Shown here piece by piece: positions 5,737 through 43,455 of a stretch of 54,356 bases of DNA (position 1 is the first letter of the stretch; every line of letters begins with the position of its first letter). The position numbers and the translations under genes are program-made. The DNA is from a virus. The stretch is taken from IMG/VR virus record IMGVR_UViG_3300035670_000272, positions 1-54,356 of that record, one strand, 5' to 3'. Under the pieces are notes generated by a model, which did not search any database, was not told where the DNA came from, and saw only the letters and a list, made by a program, of their open reading frames with translations.

Positions 5737-6036
5737 GTGAACTTGCAGGAGCAGGCCGTCAGCATCGCAGCACTCGTCGCTGCCGTCACCGCTATCGCCA
5801 TCTTCATGTACAGGGTGTACAAGATCGCTCGCCGCATCGACGACACCCTCGGCGTGGACAAGGAAGGCCGAACCATTAGTGACCGGCTTCAGCGTGTCGA
5901 GCATCAGTTGTTCCCGAACGGCGGGGCTAGCCTGAGCGACAAGATCACCCGTGTCGAGAGTGAACAGAGGCTAATGAAGGGGAAACTGGACACGGTTGAG
6001 ACGATCGTGAACAGTCTACTGAGGGAGAACAAGTGA
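5737..6036 (+). CDS. Membrane-anchored coiled-coil protein
   Basis: The start is GTG 5737 with an AGGAG site before it. The 99-residue product has one N-terminal TM helix (about residues 7-24) followed by a long predicted helix rich in heptads (DRLQRVEHQLF, DKITRVESEQRLM, LDTVETIVNSLL). The layout resembles DUF2746-type actinophage proteins in lysis cassettes. It could regulate the holin or help span the envelope. Its stop overlaps the amidase start. Confidence 0.65.
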   Translation: MNLQEQAVSIAALVAAVTAIAIFMYRVYKIARRIDDTLGVDKEGRTISDRLQRVEHQLFPNGGASLSDKITRVESEQRLMKGKLDTVETIVNSLLRENK

Positions 6037-7616: not shown

Positions 7617-8378
7617 ATGGCGTACTTCACGCAGAACAGAGAGATGAAGGCCGATGGTGTCTGGAACTTCACCCTGCCTGCCTGGGTCGTGGAGTTGCCG
7701 GACGGTAGCCACTTCAACGTCTGCCCCAACGCCGGTGCCTGCGCGAAGTTCTGTTACGCCAGGAACGGGACGTTCCTCTTCCCCAAGGTGCGCGGTAAGC
7801 ACCTGAGCAACCTGGAGTTGGTGCGTGACGATCCGTTGTGGACTGCGGCGCTCGCGGAGGAGTTGGCGCATAAGCGGTTCCTGCCGACCGGCGACCCGCG
7901 AACCGTCCCCGGCCTAACGGACGTAACGCATCTGTCGCCGCGCGTGCAGGCTTGGCTCCGTAACGGTGGCGCGGCTGTCCGCATCCACGATTCCGGCGAC
8001 TTCTTCTCGCGCGAATACCTGCTGGGATGGATCGGCCTAGCGAATATGTTCCCGGAGATCCTGTTCTACGCATACACGAAAGAGGTTGCGTTACTGAGGA
8101 CGGTCGATCTTCCCGACAACTTCCTCGTCATCTTCAGCATGGGCGGGAAGCAGGACCACCTAATCGACCCCGACATAGATAGGCATGCCGATGTGTTCCC
8201 GGATGTTCAGGCGATCGAGGATGCTGGCTACATGACTCAGCATCAGTCGGACCTCCTCGCCGTGCTGCTGCCGACGACGCGCGTCGGGATACCTCAGAAC
8301 AACATCCCCCACTTCAGGAAACGGCTCGCAGGCCGGACATTCGCGGAGGCGCAGCGGGAGCGGGTGAGGCACCGGTGA
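7617..8378 (+). CDS. GP88-family protein
   Basis: The protein has 253 residues. The CPNAGACAKFCYARNG block near residues 36-51 is the cysteine signature of the GP88 family first named from a mycobacteriophage gene, followed by VRIHDSGDFFSREYL and FYAYTKE. The cysteines suggest metal or iron-sulfur binding, and the middle part resembles radical-type or nucleotide-modifying phage proteins. The biochemical role is not established. It is coupled to the WhiB-like gene by a GTGA overlap. Confidence 0.75.
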   Translation: MAYFTQNREMKADGVWNFTLPAWVVELPDGSHFNVCPNAGACAKFCYARNGTFLFPKVRGKHLSNLELVRDDPLWTAALAEELAHKRFLPTGDPRTVPGLTDVTHLSPRVQAWLRNGGAAVRIHDSGDFFSREYLLGWIGLANMFPEILFYAYTKEVALLRTVDLPDNFLVIFSMGGKQDHLIDPDIDRHADVFPDVQAIEDAGYMTQHQSDLLAVLLPTTRVGIPQNNIPHFRKRLAGRTFAEAQRERVRHR

Positions 8379-10045: not shown

Positions 10046-11914
10046 ATGCTGGTGTTCAAGGCGTGGCGGAAGTCGCCAGCGCTAACCCAGGAGACGACCC
10101 CGAGCCAGCGCAGGATCACGCGCATCCTGAGCGACGCGCAGCAGGCGGCAGCGCGGGAGTTCGGGGAGCGGCAGCGGGAGGTTGCTGATCTTCTGTCGCG
10201 GGGCCAGGTCGATCGTGTAGTGGCGATGTTGCCGACTGAGCCGTGGCTGGTCGCACAGGAGCAGTTGGCCGCCGAGTTGCTTGGTGAGTTGCTGGACGCG
10301 GGTTCTCGGGTGAAGTTGCCGACGATCGAGAAGGCGACGCTGGAGTTCTCGTTCGATAGGGGTAGGCCGGAGTCCGTGTCTTGGGCGCGGCAGGAGGCAG
10401 GGAACCTTATCTCTCAGATCACGGGTGAGCAGCGGAACGTCGTGCGTGACGTTGTTGCGCTCGCGGGGATGGGCGATGCGGATTGGGGTGATGTTTCCCG
10501 CGAGGTTCAGGGTTCTATCGGGCTCACGACGCAGCAAGCAGGCTGGGTATCTAACTATTACGATCGCGCGTTCTCGCAGCAGATACGGGCAGGCGCGAGC
10601 CCGAGCCAGGCAGCAGCCCGAGCGAGAGACGCATCGGCGCGTTACCAGACCAGCGTTCACCGTTACCGAGCCAACACGATCGCACGCACCGAGACCATGC
10701 GAGCCGCAAGCGAAGGGCGCATGCAGGCGTGGAATCAAGGCCTCACGGATGGGTTCATTTCTCCGTTGTGGGATAAGGAGTGGGTCGCGGAGGCTGACGC
10801 TTGCGACATCTGTCAGGGTCTCGACCGGAATCGCGTGAAGGTGAAGGAGTCGTTCTCGGTCGGTGACCCCCCTGCGCATCCGAACTGCCGATGCGACGTT
10901 ATTCTCGTGCCGCCGAACGTGAAGCCTCAGAGCGCGGGTGGCTTCGGGTTCACCCTGCCTGATGTGCTGTTCAATCTGCCGATCGACGATCTGCTGTTCA
11001 ATCTGCTGTTCAATCAGCCGCTCCCGAGGATTCCTGGCTGGGGACCGAGGCAGCCCGCACCGGAAGTTACTAGGCCGCCAGAGCCGCCTAAGTTCCGGCA
11101 ACCTGGCGAGAAGCCTTCATTCGATGACATCGTTGATAACGCTGAAGAGATTATTGACGAAATGATGGCGAGGGCGCAGGAGGCCATCGACGCTGGCGAT
11201 AGTGACACATCACTCGGTGACTCGATGCTGTCGGCGATCTACAGGAGGATGGGATACGAAGGGCTCCCGCAAGTCGTTGATGAAGATATCTTCGAGCAGT
11301 TAGCGCAAGAGCAGACGATCTGGTTCAGGGGCATGCAAGCGTTTGGGAGAGAGGCAGATGATTTCCTCGACATGCTGCGCTTCGGCGATTATTACGCCGG
11401 TTACGGCACCTTCGGTAACGGCACATATGCCAGCAACTACGAGCGAACAGCCGTTTCCTACGGCGCAGGAAGATTAGGCAACGTTATCCGCATCCTCCTG
11501 AGCCCTACGGCACGGGTCATCGAAAGCAACGACCTCATGGTCATGTATCGGGATTGGCATAGACAATTCGGCGCTACGGGTCCCGCGACCATGCTGATGG
11601 ACGATATGGGTCGCTTTGCCGCCGCGAAGGGATACGACGCCATTATGGTTACCGATATCGGCCTGGGCGGTCCGGGGGGAAAGGAAAGTTACATAGTCAT
11701 CCTCAACCGCAACCTCATGGTGCTGCCGAAAGCGAATGGCCTCGGCCCGAATGTTATCGAGCGAAACGTTCTGGAAAGGGCATGGAACGAGGCGGTCGCT
11801 AACGATCCGAGCATCCTACAAACTTTCGGCAGTATGTACAGTTACGCGAGAAGCAGAGGGTTCAAGTCCGTATGGGAAGGCAGCACCCTCTACGACTTGA
11901 CCATGTTCGATTAG
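10046..11914 (+). CDS. MuF-like head protein fused to ADP-ribosyltransferase-like domain
   Basis: The protein has 622 residues. The first half is a MuF-type head morphogenesis protein, with the block DACDICQGLDRNRVKV near 250 and HPNCRCDVILV near 279. A proline-rich linker follows (about 330-360). The C-terminal part has features of ADP-ribosyltransferases: IWFRGM near 424, FGNGTYASNYERTAVSYG near 455, GYDAIMVTD near 531 and ESYIVILN near 546, fitting an R, G-x-G-x-Y and E active-site set. MuF proteins are packaged in the head, so the toxin-like domain could be delivered with the DNA and modify a host protein early in infection. The target is unknown. Confidence 0.8.
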   Translation: MLVFKAWRKSPALTQETTPSQRRITRILSDAQQAAAREFGERQREVADLLSRGQVDRVVAMLPTEPWLVAQEQLAAELLGELLDAGSRVKLPTIEKATLEFSFDRGRPESVSWARQEAGNLISQITGEQRNVVRDVVALAGMGDADWGDVSREVQGSIGLTTQQAGWVSNYYDRAFSQQIRAGASPSQAAARARDASARYQTSVHRYRANTIARTETMRAASEGRMQAWNQGLTDGFISPLWDKEWVAEADACDICQGLDRNRVKVKESFSVGDPPAHPNCRCDVILVPPNVKPQSAGGFGFTLPDVLFNLPIDDLLFNLLFNQPLPRIPGWGPRQPAPEVTRPPEPPKFRQPGEKPSFDDIVDNAEEIIDEMMARAQEAIDAGDSDTSLGDSMLSAIYRRMGYEGLPQVVDEDIFEQLAQEQTIWFRGMQAFGREADDFLDMLRFGDYYAGYGTFGNGTYASNYERTAVSYGAGRLGNVIRILLSPTARVIESNDLMVMYRDWHRQFGATGPATMLMDDMGRFAAAKGYDAIMVTDIGLGGPGGKESYIVILNRNLMVLPKANGLGPNVIERNVLERAWNEAVANDPSILQTFGSMYSYARSRGFKSVWEGSTLYDLTMFD

Positions 11915-28948: not shown

Positions 28949-29692
28949 TTACCTCCTAGGGTTCAGCAACTTCACTTCGAGATAACCGTCCGGTCTGCGC
29001 TTGCTGATACGCACGTACTGAGGCCATTCGCTCAGCAGATAGTGGACATCTCGCTCGTTCTCCTCTGTTCTGTCGTGATTCTGCGAACCTCCTGACCCGC
29101 TACGCATCGGAGCGGCTTTGGCGCACATCATGTCGAACCGGATTACTTCACCATCGGCGACATAACGCATGAGTGACTTCTCGTAGTCTTGCTTGTAGTT
29201 GAGGCGCATGGTCTCTGAACGCCGGTTCAGGAAACCGTGGAGGTGCCCGATGCAGAAGAGCAGTCCGCTGTTGATGCGGGGCTTCATGAAGTAAGCGTTA
29301 GCGACCGGGTAGACGCCCCACATCGTGGCACTCCCGCGAGCCATGATCCTGAACGTGTCGGCGAATGTCTTGTCGAGATCGCTGACCGTCGCTAGGTCAG
29401 ATCCGTTGAGCATCTGAACGGCGAGAATGTCGTCGTCTAGTTCCACGATGGGAGTGTTCTCGTCGTAGTAACGGTTGATGGCGTTGCGGTTATTGGCGAG
29501 CCCCGTGCCGCCTGTCTCGATCGCGCCGTACAGAGAATCGTCCACTTGGTCGCGGTACTGCTGTTCCTGCCCTGGCGTGACGAACACGCGAATCTTCTCG
29601 GCGGGTACGCCCCCATCGCGCAGGCACTTCAGCGTCCGCTCGGTTAACTGTTGTGGCCGCGCGTGGCTGACGATCGCTACCTCGTAGGTCAC
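28949..29692 (-). CDS. TET/JBP-associated glycosyltransferase-like protein
   Basis: The protein has 247 residues. VAIVSHARPQQLTERTLKCL begins a GT-A Rossmann part, and GLANNRNAINRYYDE leads to VELDDDI with the metal-binding aspartates at 86-88. This matches the glycosyltransferases found beside TET/JBP dioxygenases (TAGT group), which are thought to put a sugar on the hydroxymethyl base made by the dioxygenase. Its start overlaps the dioxygenase stop by four bases, which strongly links the two. The sugar donor may come from the SDR enzymes encoded elsewhere in this genome. Confidence 0.75.
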   Translation of the reverse strand: MTYEVAIVSHARPQQLTERTLKCLRDGGVPAEKIRVFVTPGQEQQYRDQVDDSLYGAIETGGTGLANNRNAINRYYDENTPIVELDDDILAVQMLNGSDLATVSDLDKTFADTFRIMARGSATMWGVYPVANAYFMKPRINSGLLFCIGHLHGFLNRRSETMRLNYKQDYEKSLMRYVADGEVIRFDMMCAKAAPMRSGSGGSQNHDRTEENERDVHYLLSEWPQYVRISKRRPDGYLEVKLLNPRR

Positions 29693-30594
29693 TTCGCCTT
29701 TCCCGTCATTCCCTTCATCTTGCTAATGCTCTTCGCCATCTCCTCCGTAACGAACGGGCGCTCTCCGCGAATCGCAGAAGCCATGTTGTCCTCGCGCTCG
29801 GTCCGCGTCTCCTGAGCCCTGGCTGTCTCGATCGCGTAAGTGAAGCAGTCCTTCATCCCGCGCAACGCGTAATACACGACGCTGTAACGGTAGCCGTCCT
29901 TCGCGGTCTGCGTCATGGGAGTGACGCCATGAACGAGGCGGTAGCCGCAGAAGTAGAGCGCGTAACCGTCACGGGCGGCGCAAGTGACATCGTATTCGGG
30001 GATGTGCAGATACCCGCCAGTAACATTCCTGCGGAGGACCGGCATCGCCGACCATGTATCGAAGTTGAATCCGTCGCGGTGATACGGGAGGGTGCTTGTC
30101 TTGTTGATGACGCCGCTAGTCCAGAGCGCATCTTTCGCCATACGCCAGTCGTCCGCGACCTCGATAATGGTGCGCTCGTCGCGGTCGTGAACCTCCGGGA
30201 ACACCTCACGCAACTGGTCCGCCAACGCGTACGCTGTCGTGACGATAACGGTATGTGCCTCGGGCTCTTCCTGAGCGAGCGTGTAGGGGCGGCAGGAATC
30301 CCGCTGTGCGAGCGGCTTACGCGGCGACATGCCGAACGTCCGCGACACGTTAGTCATACCGCTGCCGGTGCGGACAGTCTTCCCGTACTTCACCTTCAGA
30401 ACGGCGCGACGCAGGTGACTGATCGTGTCCCGCTCCAACGGCAGATAAGCGAACACCGGCTCGTTTGTTTCCGCGTCGGCGATAACGCACGCTTCCGTTA
30501 TGTTCGGTTCGATTTCCGGTACGGTCTCGCCTAGGTACTTGTCGGCTTCTTGCTTGTCGAGTACCCGTTCACGCTTCAGGATTCGATATTCCAT
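29689..30594 (-). CDS. TET/JBP-family 2OG-Fe(II) dioxygenase
   Basis: The protein has 301 residues. The iron facial triad is visible as H172-x-D174 in LPYHRDGFN and H222 in YRLVHGVTPM, and R236 in DGYRYSVVYY is placed to bind 2-oxoglutarate. GGYLHIPEYD between them fits the TET/JBP double-stranded beta-helix. Family members oxidise the methyl group of 5-methylcytosine or thymine in DNA. Tight coupling to ParB and glycosyltransferase genes is the known layout of phage base-hypermodification operons. Which base is oxidised cannot be read from the sequence. Confidence 0.85.
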   Translation of the reverse strand: MEYRILKRERVLDKQEADKYLGETVPEIEPNITEACVIADAETNEPVFAYLPLERDTISHLRRAVLKVKYGKTVRTGSGMTNVSRTFGMSPRKPLAQRDSCRPYTLAQEEPEAHTVIVTTAYALADQLREVFPEVHDRDERTIIEVADDWRMAKDALWTSGVINKTSTLPYHRDGFNFDTWSAMPVLRRNVTGGYLHIPEYDVTCAARDGYALYFCGYRLVHGVTPMTQTAKDGYRYSVVYYALRGMKDCFTYAIETARAQETRTEREDNMASAIRGERPFVTEEMAKSISKMKGMTGKAK

Positions 30595-38706: not shown

Positions 38707-39705
38707 TCACGCAGATAGCAGCGAGTACGCCTTCTGCTTGATCGGTTCGACAGCGCCCAGGAAGACGCGCTCGGCGCGCGCAACATCAGCGTCGCGCTTG
38801 CCTGCCTTCACGGGCTTCACCCAGTCAGCCCACTCGGTGATGGCGTTGAACGCTGCCCAGCGAGTTCCGGCGACGTTATGCTGGGTCGGGGCGAGCCAAA
38901 GACCGGCAACCTGCTCGCGGGTCTCCTCGACGCGCATCATCTGGAGGCTGCTCATGTCCTTACGCATCGGGAACAACTTCTCCGTGAACGTGTCGAACTC
39001 ACGGCGCGACATCTCCTGCGACACGAGTTCATCAACCGCAGTCTGGAACGCGTCGGCGTAATCGACGACGAGCCCCATCGCCTCGCGCGCCTGCTGGATC
39101 TTGCCGCGAATGTTGGTCGTGTGCTTCATCGACCACTTGCTGACCGCGCTCTGCAGACCGAACTGAACGGTGTTCGCGCAGACAGGCCGGACCGCAGTGA
39201 CGAACGCGGTGAAAGCCTTGCTCCCGTCGTGGCTAGTTGAGCAGACGAGGTACAGGTCTACGGTGTCCTGCCCTCCGGCGATGCTGATGTGCTGCGGCAT
39301 CTTCATGGATACGAACACCTGAGTCCCGCCGCGCAGGGAACCGGCAGTCTCGAAGACCGCGCCGGACTCGTCAACGAGAGTGTTCAGGAAGTCGAACGCT
39401 TCCTTGTTCTGGATGACGGTGTATTGCGATCCGACGACACCGAGACCTTGGAGTCCCAACTTCGGGTGGTCGCGGTAAGTCATGAAGCGATCGGGCGCGC
39501 TCACCATAACGACGCCGTTCTCGGTGAGTACCGGGGTCTGGACCGGATCGTCGGACTTCACGACCTCCCAATCCAACTGCGAGAGCCGGAGCGCGTCCTC
39601 AACTGTCTGCGCGCCGTCCGTGATAACGCCTAGGTGATGCCAGGGAACCTCGCGGTTGCTGAAGAACGCGGCGCTCCCGTCTTTGAATGTCTCTACTGCG
39701 TGCAT
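38707..39705 (-). CDS. DUF932 phage/plasmid-like protein
   Basis: I use ATG 39705, behind GGAAGGGTACGC. The 332-residue product has VETFKDGSAAFFSNREVPWHHLG, then QYTVIQNKEAFDFLNTLVDE and RPVCANTVQFGLQSA, typical of the DUF932 family found on phages and plasmids. The function is unknown; it is often expressed early. It lies after the eighth ribozyme element. Confidence 0.8.
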   Translation of the reverse strand: MHAVETFKDGSAAFFSNREVPWHHLGVITDGAQTVEDALRLSQLDWEVVKSDDPVQTPVLTENGVVMVSAPDRFMTYRDHPKLGLQGLGVVGSQYTVIQNKEAFDFLNTLVDESGAVFETAGSLRGGTQVFVSMKMPQHISIAGGQDTVDLYLVCSTSHDGSKAFTAFVTAVRPVCANTVQFGLQSAVSKWSMKHTTNIRGKIQQAREAMGLVVDYADAFQTAVDELVSQEMSRREFDTFTEKLFPMRKDMSSLQMMRVEETREQVAGLWLAPTQHNVAGTRWAAFNAITEWADWVKPVKAGKRDADVARAERVFLGAVEPIKQKAYSLLSA

Positions 39706-39727: not shown

Positions 39728-39784
39728 CTGACGATCTCGTCAGCGGCACTATTCAGCACCGGACCCCTCTCGGGGTTTCGATCT
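39728..39784 (-). ncRNA. Type II hammerhead ribozyme, copy 8 (variant)
   Basis: The core is complete on the minus strand: GAAA, stem III ACCCC-GAGA-GGGGU, UC, stem I, CUGACGA. Cleavage is predicted between 39762 and 39761. Stem II here is GAUC with GAUC, four pairs, where the other copies have GAC with GUC. Stem I (CGGUGCU with AGUGCCG) has two wobble pairs. In place of the six-base pseudoknot, CTGACG and CGTCAG (39728-39743) form a local hairpin that could compete with the fold. The TAG stop of the upstream gene lies next to stem II. Confidence 0.75.
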
Positions 39785-39959
39785 AGTCAGTACGTTGATC
39801 GCAAGCGTGGCGAACCTTGAAGATCGGTCCGTCAGCCGCGAGTTCTGCGAGGCGTCGCATCCCCTCTTCGGTCGCGATGTTGATTGCCTCATATTCGGCA
39901 ATCGTTATTGGCTTGTATTTCTCAGCAGAAGACGTAGACAGTTCCGTCGAAGTCTCCAT
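39783..39959 (-). CDS. Small acidic protein (58 aa)
   Basis: ATG 39959 has AGGAGG six bases before it; ATG 39965 is too close. The product has a serine/threonine-rich start (ETSTELSTSSAEKYK) and a helix (IAEYEAINIATEEGMRRLAELA). No family is recognised. Its TAG stop is part of the ribozyme that follows. Confidence 0.55.
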   Translation of the reverse strand: METSTELSTSSAEKYKPITIAEYEAINIATEEGMRRLAELAADGPIFKVRHACDQRTD

Positions 39960-40194
39960 CGTCATCCTCCTCGGGGTCGTGAATCTGATACTCGTCGTGG
40001 TAGTCGTCCCACTTAGCGGTCATTTCGTGAACGTTGTTCTCAATGAAGCGGTATCCGAGCCGCGTCTGCCAGTAATCAGCAGAGGCAGCGCTGAACAGGA
40101 TCGGCTTGTCGAGATCCGGCAGCGCATAAAGCGCGTCGATAAGTTCCCGAACCGTGAGTGTTGCCTTGTTCGCTTCGACATTCGTCGTTGCCAT
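39922..40194 (-). CDS. Acidic hypothetical protein (90 aa)
   Basis: The product has TLTVRELIDALYALPDLDKPI, a helix and strand block found in short actinophage proteins, and an acidic tail (DPEEDDDGDFDG). It overlaps the genes on both sides, so no ribozyme fits at those junctions. The function is unknown. Confidence 0.6.
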   Translation of the reverse strand: MATTNVEANKATLTVRELIDALYALPDLDKPILFSAASADYWQTRLGYRFIENNVHEMTAKWDDYHDEYQIHDPEEDDDGDFDGTVYVFC

Positions 40195-40298
40195 TACCGC
40201 ATACCTCCCTCAACCCATCCCGCGATCCCCATGAACGCGAGCATTACTAGTGTGAAGAGTGTTGCTGCGGCGATCTCGCCGCGTTGCGTGAGCCTCAC
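40194..40298 (-). CDS. Small membrane protein (34 aa)
   Basis: GTG 40298 overlaps the upstream stop (GTGA) and TAA at 40194-40196 overlaps the next ATG (TAATG). LTQRGEIAAATLFTLVMLAFMGIAGWVEGG is a basic start and one TM helix, a form very common in actinophages. The function is unknown. Confidence 0.7.
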   Translation of the reverse strand: MRLTQRGEIAAATLFTLVMLAFMGIAGWVEGGMR

Positions 40299-40504
40299 GA
40301 TGCCTCCTCTGTCGGCGTGATCGGTGCCCCGAGCCATTCCTCAACGGCTTTGATGTGGAATAACTCGGGTGCGTTACTGAACTGCGTGATCTGAATGTGC
40401 TGAAGCGGGTCCCACCCGATCCGTTCCAACTCGTTCAGGGTGTTCCTGAGCGAGAAGATCGTCGGTCGGCGCAGGATGTAACCCGTCTGCAATCTTTCGA
40501 TCAT
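40295..40504 (-). CDS. Hypothetical protein (69 aa)
   Basis: The product has RRPTIFSLRNTLNELERIGWDPLQHIQI, alpha-beta, with no family recognised. It follows ribozyme copy 7 and uses the leader GGAAGGGGAAGCGC. It starts a group of four overlapping genes. Confidence 0.6.
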   Translation of the reverse strand: MIERLQTGYILRRPTIFSLRNTLNELERIGWDPLQHIQITQFSNAPELFHIKAVEEWLGAPITPTEEAS

Positions 40505-40520
40505 GCGCTTCCCCTTCCGT

Positions 40521-40584
40521 TAGCCTGTCTCTTCAGGCGTAGGAGGCTATCCCTACGCGACCCCGGCGAACCGGGGTTTCGACT
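40521..40584 (-). ncRNA. Type II hammerhead ribozyme, copy 7
   Basis: Stem III is ACCCCGG-UUCG-CCGGGGU, then UC with cleavage predicted between 40559 and 40558. Stem I is GCGUAGG with CCUACGC, seven perfect pairs. The core is CUGAAGA and GAAA; stem II is GAC with GUC. The loop of stem I (UAGCCU) pairs with AGGCUA just after stem II, six pairs, making a pseudoknot. The TAG stop of the upstream gene (40583-40585) supplies part of stem II. Confidence 0.9.
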
Positions 40585-40867
40585 AGAACGGCGGAGCGGA
40601 CTTTTCTCTGGCGGATTCCTCTCCGGCCTCCCAACCTTTCGACCAGCCGCGATCGAACTCGGCGAACTCGGCGTCCCAAATGAGTTCACGGATCTTCTGA
40701 AGGCTCTCCTTGTCTACCCCCAACTCGCGGAAGTAGTGGATGAGCGCGTGGTACATGACGCGGCTCTCGTTCGAGGCACCCTTGGTCGGGTACTGCTCAA
40801 CGAAGCGCCACGCGCCAGCGATAGCCATGTCGATCGTCTCGGTCAGCGGCGTGCGTGTCTCTGTCAT
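40583..40867 (-). CDS. Hypothetical helical protein (94 aa)
   Basis: I use ATG 40867, behind CGAAAGGGAAG; the longer frame to 41185 runs through the next gene and ribozyme. The product has TPLTETIDMAIAGAWRFVEQYP and YHALIHYFRELGVDKESLQKIREL, mostly helix. No family is recognised. It lies between ribozymes 6 and 7. Confidence 0.6.
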   Translation of the reverse strand: MTETRTPLTETIDMAIAGAWRFVEQYPTKGASNESRVMYHALIHYFRELGVDKESLQKIRELIWDAEFAEFDRGWSKGWEAGEESAREKSAPPF

Positions 40868-40883
40868 TGGCTTCCCTTTCGTC

Positions 40884-40943
40884 TCGCCTGTCTCTTCAGC
40901 GCCAGGAGGCGAACCCTGACGGACCCCTCTCGGGGTTTCGACT
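40884..40943 (-). ncRNA. Type II hammerhead ribozyme, copy 6
   Basis: Stem III is ACCCC-GAGA-GGGGU, then UC with cleavage predicted between 40922 and 40921. Stem I is CGUCAGG with CCUGGCG, seven pairs with one U-G wobble. The core is CUGAAGA and GAAA; stem II is GAC with GUC. Loop I UCGCCU pairs with AGGCGA, six pairs. The upstream TAG stop overlaps stem II. Confidence 0.9.
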
Positions 40944-41244
40944 AGTCGCGCGTCGCGTAGATACGGATGACGCGGCGCTCGCCGTACTCGTTCTCGTTGC
41001 CGTACTCGTAGGACCAGATCTCCGTGTCGCCGAAGTGGTCTACCTCGACTGCCTCGGGGTTGCTCTCTAGTGCCTTCAGGATCTTGTTGAGCCGGATCTT
41101 GACGGTGCGGTCGCTCACCGGCGTGTAGTGATTGACTTCGCCGTGCTCTGGCGCGGCGTAGGTGCCGCCGCAACCGCAGGCGCATCCGGTCTTGCCGCAG
41201 TACGTCTTCTGGATGTTCTTGAATGAGATACCGATGGTGGTCAT
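40942..41244 (-). CDS. Small protein with YEY-NEYG motif (100 aa)
   Basis: The product has a cysteine-rich start (TYCGKTGCACGCGGTY) and an end with SYEYGNENEYGERRVIRIY. The last block resembles EYRNEYGAWVRVIT in the gene at 41681-41884 and FEYRYEFSRDSGEKFVIR at 42243-42494, so these may be paralogs. It ends in a TAG stop inside ribozyme 6. The function is unknown. Confidence 0.6.
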   Translation of the reverse strand: MTTIGISFKNIQKTYCGKTGCACGCGGTYAAPEHGEVNHYTPVSDRTVKIRLNKILKALESNPEAVEVDHFGDTEIWSYEYGNENEYGERRVIRIYATRD

Positions 41245-41260
41245 GTGCTTCCCTTTCGTC

Positions 41261-41323
41261 TGGCCCTGTCTCGTCAGCGGTAGGCGGGCAGTTCTACCGG
41301 ACCCCGTTTCCGGGGTTTCGACT
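41261..41323 (-). ncRNA. Type II hammerhead ribozyme, copy 5
   Basis: Stem III is ACCCCG-GAAA-CGGGGU, then UC with cleavage predicted between 41300 and 41299. Stem I is CGGUAG with CUACCG. The core is CUGACGA and GAAA; stem II is GAC with GUC. The pseudoknot is shorter here, GCCC with GGGC. The upstream TAG stop overlaps stem II. Confidence 0.85.
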
Positions 41324-41606
41324 AATAGCCGAGTCGCTTCAGGTCAGCGTTCGCATACTTGCCGAGAACGCGCGACGTTGCCGCGACGTAGGTGTGTCCG
41401 TGAATGTCGGTCTTGATAACCGGGTCGGTGTACACGACCTGAGCGTTGATCGCGTTCACGAGTCGCTGCGCGGTTCGCTTGTTACGCAGGACGTAGCCGT
41501 GGGTGCTTGGCCTATCGACTGGCGCATCCCAGGTTGAGTAGACGCGCCACTCGCCACCGGGATCGTCGTCTGTCTCGCACTCGTACATATCGGCTCGGAC
41601 CTTCAT
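41322..41606 (-). CDS. Hypothetical protein (94 aa)
   Basis: The product is alpha-beta with WRVYSTWDAPVDRPSTHGY and RTAQRLVNAINAQVV. No family is recognised. It stands alone between ribozymes 4 and 5, with the leader CGAAAGGGAAGCAC. The function is unknown. Confidence 0.6.
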   Translation of the reverse strand: MKVRADMYECETDDDPGGEWRVYSTWDAPVDRPSTHGYVLRNKRTAQRLVNAINAQVVYTDPVIKTDIHGHTYVAATSRVLGKYANADLKRLGY

Positions 41607-41622
41607 GTGCTTCCCTTTCGTT

Positions 41623-41682
41623 ACACCTGTCTCGTCAGCACGGGTCGGTGATTTCCCGTGGACCCCTCTCGGGGTTTCGACT
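41623..41682 (-). ncRNA. Type II hammerhead ribozyme, copy 4
   Basis: Stem III is ACCCC-GAGA-GGGGU, then UC with cleavage predicted between 41661 and 41660. Stem I is CACGGG with CCCGUG. The core is CUGACGA and GAAA; stem II is GAC with GUC. The pseudoknot is CACC with GGUG. The upstream TAG stop overlaps stem II. Confidence 0.85.
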
Positions 41683-41884
41683 ATTCAGCACCGCACTCGC
41701 AGCCTCGCTTGTTGCAGCGGTTGGGCGCGGCCTGCCGGAAGACCCGCTCGCCGCAGAGCGAGCAGCAGGTCATCGCGGCGATGCAGGACTTCTGTTCGGT
41801 CGGGCAAGTGATGACCCGTACCCATGCGCCGTACTCGTTGCGGTACTCGAAGTCCAGCGTATGCAGGTTGGTCGCGGTCATCAT
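41681..41884 (-). CDS. Small cysteine-rich protein (67 aa)
   Basis: ATG 41884 or 41881; both overlap the upstream stop (ATGATGA). The product has LDFEYRNEYGAWVRVIT, then CPTEQKSC, CCSLCGERVF and NRCNKRGCECG, a set of cysteines that suggests zinc binding. It is coupled to the upstream gene, and no ribozyme lies between them. Confidence 0.6.
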   Translation of the reverse strand: MMTATNLHTLDFEYRNEYGAWVRVITCPTEQKSCIAAMTCCSLCGERVFRQAAPNRCNKRGCECGAE

Positions 41885-42165
41885 GCCGTCACCGACCGTG
41901 TATCGAACGCGAACATGACCGCGTACTGGGCATCTGTCTTCGTTCGGCAAGTCGCTATCACGGCACCGTTGATGATCGCGTCCCAGGAGCCGACATCGTT
42001 CGGCTGGACCGATGCCGCGATGGGTCGGTTGTCGCGACCAATGACGTCGTAGCCGTACACGGCGATCAGTCGCTTGCCACGACGCTCGGTGCGCATCAGG
42101 TAGCCGCGCCAGATCAGGTCGCCGTACTTGTCGGTCTTCGGCTGAAGTTCAGCAAGAAGGCTCAT
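41881..42165 (-). CDS. Hypothetical protein (94 aa)
   Basis: I use ATG 42165, behind CGAAAGGGAAG. The product has LIWRGYLMRTERRGKRLIAVYGYDVI and TCRTKTDAQYAVMFAFD, beta strands followed by a helix, like its neighbours. The function is unknown. Confidence 0.6.
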   Translation of the reverse strand: MSLLAELQPKTDKYGDLIWRGYLMRTERRGKRLIAVYGYDVIGRDNRPIAASVQPNDVGSWDAIINGAVIATCRTKTDAQYAVMFAFDTRSVTA

Positions 42166-42184
42166 TGTTCTTCCCTTTCGTTGG

Positions 42185-42244
42185 TCGCCTGTCTCTTCAG
42201 GTGCGGGAGGCGATCTCCGCACGACCCCTCGCGGGGTTTCGACT
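42185..42244 (-). ncRNA. Type II hammerhead ribozyme, copy 3
   Basis: Stem III is ACCCC-GCGA-GGGGU, then UC with cleavage predicted between 42223 and 42222. Stem I is GUGCGG with CCGCAC. The core is CUGAAGA and GAAA; stem II is GAC with GUC. Loop I UCGCCU pairs with AGGCGA, six pairs. The upstream TAG stop overlaps stem II. Confidence 0.9.
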
Positions 42245-42494
42245 AGGAGTTGCTTCGGATAGGCTCGGCCATCTCCGGGTAGATCATCGCGGCGTACTCC
42301 TTCGCTTGCCGCAGCGTCGCGAACTGCTCTCCCAGCGGCTGCTCGTGCCAGTAGCCGCGACCGTCGCGGTACTGCGACACAAGCGCGTAGCCGGAGCGAC
42401 CATCGCGGTGGTCCATTCGGATGACGAACTTCTCTCCGCTATCACGTGAGAACTCGTAGCGGTACTCGAAGCCGTTCTTGATCCACATGTCCAT
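42243..42494 (-). CDS. Small protein with FEY motif (83 aa)
   Basis: The product has FEYRYEFSRDSGEKFVIRMDHRDG and a helix ATLRQAKEYAAMIYPEM. The FEY block resembles those at 40942-41244 and 41681-41884. It lies between ribozymes 2 and 3. The function is unknown. Confidence 0.6.
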   Translation of the reverse strand: MDMWIKNGFEYRYEFSRDSGEKFVIRMDHRDGRSGYALVSQYRDGRGYWHEQPLGEQFATLRQAKEYAAMIYPEMAEPIRSNS

Positions 42495-42512
42495 CGTTCT
42501 TCCCTTTCTTCT

Positions 42513-42574
42513 TGACCTGTCTCTTCAGGCACGGTAGGTCAGTTCCGCGCGACCCGCCGAAGCGGGTTTCGACT
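42513..42574 (-). ncRNA. Type II hammerhead ribozyme, copy 2
   Basis: Stem III is ACCCGC-UUCG-GCGGGU, then UC with cleavage predicted between 42551 and 42550. Stem I is GCGCGG with CCGUGC, six pairs with one G-U. The core is CUGAAGA and GAAA; stem II is GAC with GUC. Loop I UGACCU pairs with AGGUCA, six pairs. The upstream TAG stop overlaps stem II. Confidence 0.9.
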
Positions 42575-42848
42575 AACGCACGATCGACGCGTCGGCCCAA
42601 GTAGCGCTCTCCGTGATGCGCCCGGTGGCGTTACCGATGGAATTCTGGATGCCGAGGCGGATCTCGTGGATCGTCTCGCCGTCCGCCTTTGAGTAGTCGT
42701 AGCAGCGGTCGGTGCGGAACTCCATGTTGATCTCGTCTGACTCGGCGATAGCGTCCGCGAGCAGACGCACAAGCCGAGCGGCTTCCTTGCGGTTCATCGT
42801 GAAGTAAGCGACGTTCCGGTCGGTCATGGCGGTGTATGTCGTGGCCAT
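42573..42848 (-). CDS. Hypothetical protein (91 aa)
   Basis: The product has AYFTMNRKEAARLVRLLADAIAESDEI and IHEIRLGIQNSIG, a helix then strands. No family is recognised. The leader is CGAAAGGGAAGGAAACAC. It lies between ribozymes 1 and 2. Confidence 0.6.
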   Translation of the reverse strand: MATTYTAMTDRNVAYFTMNRKEAARLVRLLADAIAESDEINMEFRTDRCYDYSKADGETIHEIRLGIQNSIGNATGRITESATWADASIVR

Positions 42849-42864
42849 TGTGTTTCCTTCCCTT

Positions 42865-42930
42865 TCGCGTGTCTCTTCAGCGTTAGGACGCGACCCCTAA
42901 CGGACCTCCCCCGAAGGGGAGGTTTCGACT
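42865..42930 (-). ncRNA. Type II hammerhead ribozyme, copy 1
   Basis: Stem III is ACCUCCCC-UUCG-GGGGAGGU, the longest of the set, then UC with cleavage predicted between 42903 and 42902. Stem I is CGUUAGG with CCUAACG, seven perfect pairs. The core is CUGAAGA and GAAA; stem II is GAC with GUC. Loop I UCGCGU pairs with ACGCGA, six pairs. It is the only copy not joined to a stop codon. Confidence 0.9.
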
Positions 42931-42953
42931 GGGAAGTCAACTGTCGCTTAGGG

Positions 42954-43133
42954 TTACTGCGGCTCGTCTTGCCCCACTTCCCGCCCTGCCGCTTGCTCTG
43001 ACGCGTTACGCGGTGATCGCATCGCAACATCGGGCGCTGGTGAGGTAGGTCCCTTCCGGGTCTCCCCTCGCACGGATCGGGCTGGTTCACTAGGCGGTTC
43101 CGGTCGCGCGCTGGCCCTTCTCTGCTCAGCCAT
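42954..43133 (-). CDS. Possible first gene of the small-gene operon (59 aa)
   Basis: ATG 43133 to TAA 42954. The product is polar, rich in arginine, proline and glutamate (AEQRRASARPEPPSEPARS), with no family recognised. It lies upstream of ribozyme 1. The odd composition makes it a weak call; the region could be an untranslated leader instead. Confidence 0.35.
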   Translation of the reverse strand: MAEQRRASARPEPPSEPARSVRGETRKGPTSPAPDVAMRSPRNASEQAAGREVGQDEPQ

Positions 43134-43455
43134 TCGCCGGAGGCGGTGCCCCGATCCGCTCTTCAGTTGTAGCACGATCTTACCGTGTCAGACGGTAGTT
43201 CGGGGACTTTTGAGGAAACTAATTTGGGCGAGTTTCCGGGGTCAGAATCCAGGCCCCCACCAGGCCCCCGCCCAAGGGTCCTAGACGCTTACAGGTCGAT
43301 ACAGGTCGATCCAGGGGCAGCCCTACGCGGGTCGGCTCCGGGAAGCCCGATCGCGTGTAGAATGGTGGGAGCAACGTGTCCATCCGTGACCCCGCTCTCG
43401 CCGTGGCTCGCGTGGCCCCAGGGAAGCCGGGGTTGCCGTGCGCCCAGGGAGCGGA
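43134..43455. promoter_or_regulatory. Divergent control region between early and tail blocks
   Basis: About 320 bases separate minus-strand and plus-strand starts. On the minus strand TAAGAT (near 43178) and on the plus strand TAGAAT (near 43354) could be -10 boxes, with no good -35 partner. A tandem direct repeat ACAGGTCGAT lies at 43291-43310, a possible operator. A G/C-rich inverted repeat (CCCC with GGGG) lies near 43415-43435. The frame at 43185-43508 looks like a shadow. Confidence 0.45.

Follow-up and report, generated by a model that had tools for sequence, protein, structure and literature searches.

The window analyzed here is a whole uncultured virus record of 54,356 nucleotides (54 kb, 59% GC), which carries tailed-phage genes for a portal, a MuF-like protein, a terminase and a tape-measure protein. 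Its minus strand contains a leftward operon of small genes. Genes A (42573..42848, 91 aa), B (42243..42494, 83 aa), E (41322..41606, 94 aa) and G (40583..40867, 94 aa) were each assigned from an open reading frame and a ribosome site, and gene A had no match in PHROG or Pfam. Gene C (41881..42165, 94 aa) overlaps the cysteine-rich gene D (41681..41884, ~66 aa), gene F (40942..41244, 100 aa) has relatives in 25 viral loci, the most divergent at 33% identity, and genes H, I, J and K (69, 34, 90 and 60 aa) form an overlapping block at 39783..40504. The last gene to follow a ribozyme is gene L (38707..39705, 332 aa), a DUF932 gene (Pfam PF06067, 2.6e-63; PHROG phrog_1221, 5.7e-99) that is closest to actinophage genes. 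Elsewhere in the window, a queuine tRNA-ribosyltransferase-like gene (phrog_6059; 29689-30594, minus strand) suggests 7-deazaguanine DNA modification. A BLASTN comparison with phages returned no phage DNA matching the array described below.

To locate hammerhead ribozymes, both strands were scanned with a descriptor that consists, in order, of the stem II 3' strand, GAAA, the stem III hairpin, U-H, the stem I hairpin, CUGANGA and the stem II 5' strand. The 54-kb record proved to contain exactly 8 complete type II hammerheads, every one of them on the minus strand within 42929-39733. Dinucleotide-shuffled windows yielded 2 matches (n = 2,278), so that ~0.001 would be expected per window. In coordinates that run from stem II to stem II, the elements are E1 (42871..42929), in the 5' leader that precedes gene A; E2 (42519..42573), between genes A and B; E3 (42191..42243), between B and C; E4 (41629..41681), between D and E; E5 (41268..41322), between E and F; E6 (40890..40942), between F and G; E7 (40527..40583), between G and H; and E8 (39733..39783), between K and L. 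The Rfam type II model (RF02276, Hammerhead_II; gathering cut-off 37 bits) scored E1 (44.8 bits), E7 (43.7 bits) and E6 (39.8 bits) above the cut-off, and E2 (31.6 bits), E3 (31.0 bits) and E4 (30.8 bits) below it, with single-genome E-values of ~4-6e-6. E5 and E8 were not reported by this model and rest on their exact cores and stems, so that E2-E5 and E8 all fall short of the Rfam cut-off. E5 is nevertheless conserved in three relatives (L351, L354 and L355), and E8 is near-identical and in the same position in three (L351, L352 and L354). Minimum free energy folding of the elements (z-scores of -0.4 to -4.0) was not discriminating, and is weak evidence by itself.

In all eight elements the invariant core is present (C3 U4 G5 A6 N7 G8 A9, G12 A13 A14 and the A15.1-U16.1 pair), H17 is a C, stems I and III are closed by loops, stem II is open, and the pairs next to the core are intact. 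Stem II measures 3-4 bp, stem III 4-7 bp and stem I 6-8 bp. E1-E7 share a stem I unit of 22 nt and a GUC/GAC stem II, and E8 has a 4-bp stem II (GAUC/GAUC) and a shorter stem I unit of 18 nt. A pseudoknot between loop I and the tail, a feature of the majority of type II hammerheads, was not required by the scan. In five elements, six bases of loop I are exactly complementary to six bases 3' of stem II (E1, UCGCGU/ACGCGA; E2, UGACCU/AGGUCA; E3, UCGCCU/AGGCGA; E6, UCGCCU/AGGCGA; E7, UAGCCU/AGGCUA); the pairing comes to 4 bp in E4 and E5, and E8 is able to form CUGA/UCAG. Counting the window's own elements only, 38 of the 42 cells are paired, a value equaled by only 2 of 5,040 partner permutations. 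The fraction of paired cells is 86% in the window lineage and 82% in register among 152 elements of other phages and genomes, and a shift of the register by 1-3 bases lowers it to 21-46%. Of 612 pairs, 485 form, compared with a mean of 385 (maximum 406) after partner shuffling. The pseudoknot is thus supported by covariation. Compensatory changes are also seen between matching junctions of the relatives, for example in stem I of the G>H element, with GCGUAGG/CCUACGC in the window and GCACAGG..CCUGUGC in the relative L352. The original prediction of eight minus-strand elements holding every core base, with stem II open, is therefore confirmed by the descriptor scan, and their identity as type II hammerheads is supported by Rfam, the exact core, the stems and the covarying pseudoknot; in the comparison with the Rfam model that had been suggested along with it, E1, E6 and E7 scored above threshold and E2-E4 below it, and E5 and E8 were unreported.

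E2-E8 fill all seven gap junctions from gene A (42848) to gene L (39705), and the overlapping pairs C/D, H/I, I/J and J/K have no ribozymes between them. Downstream of 38,707, where gene calls are crude, no ribozymes were found in gaps. This bears out the expectation that ribozymes are absent where genes overlap, and the broader claim that they occupy every non-overlapping junction from 43133 to 39705 holds for the gaps between genes A and L, but not for E1, which lies in a 5' leader and is not intergenic. In E2-E8 the preceding gene's UAG stop codon reaches into stem II, and at six junctions the ribosome-site motif CGAAAGGGAAG is present. We found no intrinsic terminators (a GC hairpin followed by a T run) on the coding strand at any junction, and no useful sigma-70-type promoters.

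Upstream of E1, an open reading frame at 43133-42954 was considered as a coding gene and rejected, since its frame is not maintained throughout in the relatives. The region (42935..43205, minus strand) is strongly conserved, and an alignment and consensus fold of five relatives indicate that it is probably a structured leader. Its counterparts lie at 3615-3930 in L351, 5955-6270 in L352, 6095-6410 in L354 and 3575-3880 in L355. The predicted fold is branched, and for 8 of the 88 pairs in it, at least one relative has both bases replaced with pairing preserved (for example, GGAUCGGGG/CCCGAUCC to GGAGAGGGG/CCCUCUCC). No Rfam family matched the leader. Cleavage of E1 would free it as a separate RNA of ~300 nt.

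Comparison with the four relatives showed how the array behaves when gene content changes. L351, L352 and L354 have eight hammerheads each, and L355 has six up to its contig end. All four keep one ribozyme per gap despite genes that were gained, lost or reordered: genes E and F are in inverted order in L355, additional genes lie between the leader and gene D in several relatives, and in L352 gene E is missing together with one ribozyme, and the D>F junction consists of the D>E ribozyme joined to the ribosome site of gene F. Every core base is kept in every element of the window and its relatives, and a gap with a ribozyme in one of these phages has an intact ribozyme in the others. A ribozyme in each gap, set at a constant place relative to the stop and start codons, in a pattern that survives this gene turnover, points to selection for processing at each junction. 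We also considered that each ribozyme might travel with its downstream gene, and rejected this because ribozyme sequences sometimes track the gene before them and sometimes the one after, with the leader ribozyme fixed; joints therefore occur on either side. Among the loci with gene F relatives (L351-L375), the more distant phages often lack hammerheads, and those at 33-54% identity mostly do, so these genes can do without ribozymes. L356 and L371 nevertheless carry arrays, with a different stem II, and the ribozymes thus come and go around the gene F family.

For the wider distribution, viral and genome contigs were searched with a pattern for the GUC/GAC stem II, and the counts refer to the matches listed, so that they are lower bounds. 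Among these, in 106 pseudoknot-bearing viral elements that were not selected for a stop codon, an open reading frame stops 4-14 nt before GAAA in 79 and exactly at -5 in 24 (23 of them UAG), and the stop lies within or beyond the element in one. In a pool of at least 394 elements, partly selected for UAG, start codons peak 17-31 nt 3' of the element. Arrays of five to eight elements were seen among the matches listed in L013, L055, L052, L250 and L346, and a further contig with eight elements (L103) is Streptomyces phage Hank144. Rfam type II hammerheads number 9 in Streptomyces phage R4, 8 in Hank144 and 12 in Salutena; there were none in 14 control genomes, and none in the regions examined around the DUF932 relatives of the actinophages Sting, Sonali, LuckyBarnes and Jace. 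Three annotated mini-genes of R4 (L384), gp60.1 (5763-5846), gp67.1 (8126-8218) and gp75.1 (11074-11175), overlie Rfam hammerheads and are probably not genes, and a further three R4 hammerheads extend into the 5' ends of gp72, gp76 and gp81 as annotated, suggesting that these starts are placed too far upstream. Type II hammerheads were also observed on several contigs of the Bathymodiolus japonicus gill symbiont (L133, L163, L235, L224 and L237), and the four on L133 have identical loop/tail pairing.

Hammerheads clustered around single genes were described in prophages by Perreault et al. in 2011 (PMC3088659), who proposed processing into single-gene mRNAs. Like those clusters, which include the Agrobacterium tumefaciens triple around ardA, the window has multiple hammerheads on the coding strand on either side of single genes or short gene blocks, and it has the pseudoknot; as far as those clusters are described, the window differs in having eight elements that occupy every gap junction, stop codons within stem II, and conservation of the layout across relatives. 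The statement that hammerheads occur singly or in small numbers in bacteria and phages has therefore been overtaken by these clusters and the 8-12 elements of R4, Hank144 and Salutena, and the novelty suggested for an operon cut at each junction goes too far, as clustering in phages had already been described and transcript processing proposed. These Streptomyces phages (Arquatrovirinae) resemble the window in carrying 8-12 type II hammerheads on one strand of a small-gene region, but their stem II is mostly GGC/GCC and their array DNA is unrelated. Repeats in gaps before the starts of small actinophage genes are also known, as SAS and ESAS, from mycobacteriophages of cluster K and Microbacterium phages of cluster EF (PMC3203893, PMC7302621). 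ESAS are described there as 17-bp inverted repeats or a GTAGAG-centered motif, not as hammerheads, and these descriptions set them apart from the window elements; an identity with SAS was rejected, as the 13-bp GGGATAGGAGCCC gave 0 matches in the window with up to 2 mismatches allowed.

Taken together, the best explanation, and in our judgment the most likely function of the array, is that the transcript cuts itself at each gap junction. We prefer self-cleavage because of the known activity of the family, the conserved core and the covarying pseudoknot. On this reading the operon, which runs leftward through small phage genes, has type II hammerheads built in between stop and start codons, and each of the eight would fold as the polycistronic RNA emerges and cut after C17. 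From the sequence, cleavage is predicted with good confidence at 42903/42902 (E1), 42551/42550 (E2), 42223/42222 (E3), 41661/41660 (E4), 41300/41299 (E5), 40922/40921 (E6), 40559/40558 (E7) and 39762/39761 (E8), so that every start codon would be preceded by 54-57 nt and every stop codon followed by 20-24 nt. The products would be the leader RNA, the messages A, B, C-D, E, F, G and H-I-J-K, and the remainder of the operon from gene L. The stem III hairpin, bearing a 2',3'-cyclic phosphate, would thus form the 3' end of each upstream message. Each downstream message would open with the stem I hairpin, which would carry the 5'-OH and whose loop can pair with the tail, with the ribosome site just beyond. 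One transcript could thereby yield short messages that have protected ends and decay independently of one another, with no need for a host nuclease; protection of the ends, judged from the position of the hairpins, is about as likely to hold as to fail. Since stem II of E2-E8 takes in part of the upstream gene's stop region, a ribosome that terminates at this point should keep the hammerhead from folding and so tune cutting to translation of that gene, which we put forward tentatively, and with some doubt, from the same positional evidence. Points against this explanation are the scores of E2-E5 and E8 short of the Rfam cut-off, the frequent lack of hammerheads in distant phages with a relative of gene F, and alternative folds of some elements in which a CCUG...CAGG hairpin would sequester the core. 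The hairpin CCUG AAGAGA CAGG, which can form in E2 (42573-42519), E3 (42243-42191), E7 (40583-40527) and others, would hide CUGANGA, and it could represent an off-state or a product fold; the first base of the tail is an A in 86 of 92 elements.

Three other readings were weighed against self-cleavage for message processing. The repeats of ribozyme and ribosome site might act at the DNA level as homology patches for gene swapping, with cleavage secondary, in keeping with the reordering, gain and loss of genes that leaves one ribozyme per gap, with the fused junction of L352 that lacks gene E and one ribozyme, and with the motif shared by six junctions; homology patches would, however, need neither an exact core nor compensatory stem changes nor a covarying pseudoknot, and we consider this reading unlikely. 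Slightly less probable still is catalysis that serves mainly to make circular RNAs, in which stem II would bring together the 5'-OH and cyclic-phosphate ends for ligation by the ribozyme or RtcB. Each excised gene would bear half a hammerhead at either end, and the identical GUC/GAC stem II of E1-E7 means that neighboring halves can pair. Elsewhere, 78 of 103 adjacent pairs among the matches listed are complementary over 3 bp, a figure partly fixed by the search pattern, but the other 25 are not, E8 has GAUC, and the 2011 study looked for circular and spliced products and found none (PMC3088659).

The least probable reading, to which we give very little weight, is that the elements are non-catalytic in the phage, serving as hammerhead-like hairpins that stabilize mRNA 3' or 5' ends or terminate transcription. 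The stem III hairpins do look like stabilizing 3' hairpins, and minimum free energy folds at times favor inactive structures. Yet no element, in the window or in the relatives, has lost a core base, U-tract terminators are absent at the junctions, and comparable clustered elements cleave: clustered phage hammerheads do so in vitro, the Agrobacterium triple does so in E. coli, and the pseudoknot is needed for fast cleavage at 0.5 mM Mg2+ (PMC3088659).

The hammerhead family and the idea of processing are thus already known. What the present analysis adds is the saturation of all gap junctions, the overlap with stop codons, the uniform predicted ends, the persistence through gene shuffling, and the cultured phages with 8-12 elements; in a literature in which subscription journals were sparsely covered, we found no prior reports of these features, and none on larger hammerhead arrays or on hammerheads of Streptomyces phages. 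As the saturated layout occurs in cultured Streptomyces phages, it is testable there, and the recorded host of R4 is S. coelicolor. The role of hammerheads in bacteria and phages has been described as an open question (PMC6155905), and the fixed position of one hammerhead per gap, relative to the stop and start codons, bears on that role. It is conceivable, although we hold it as somewhat less than probable, that this is a general design of phage operons, in which one translation-sensitive hammerhead per stop-to-start gap provides standard message ends and a swappable gene boundary. Each message would then have a 5'-OH pseudoknot leader of fixed length and a 3' hairpin just past its stop codon, and genes could be added, lost or reordered without loss of processing.
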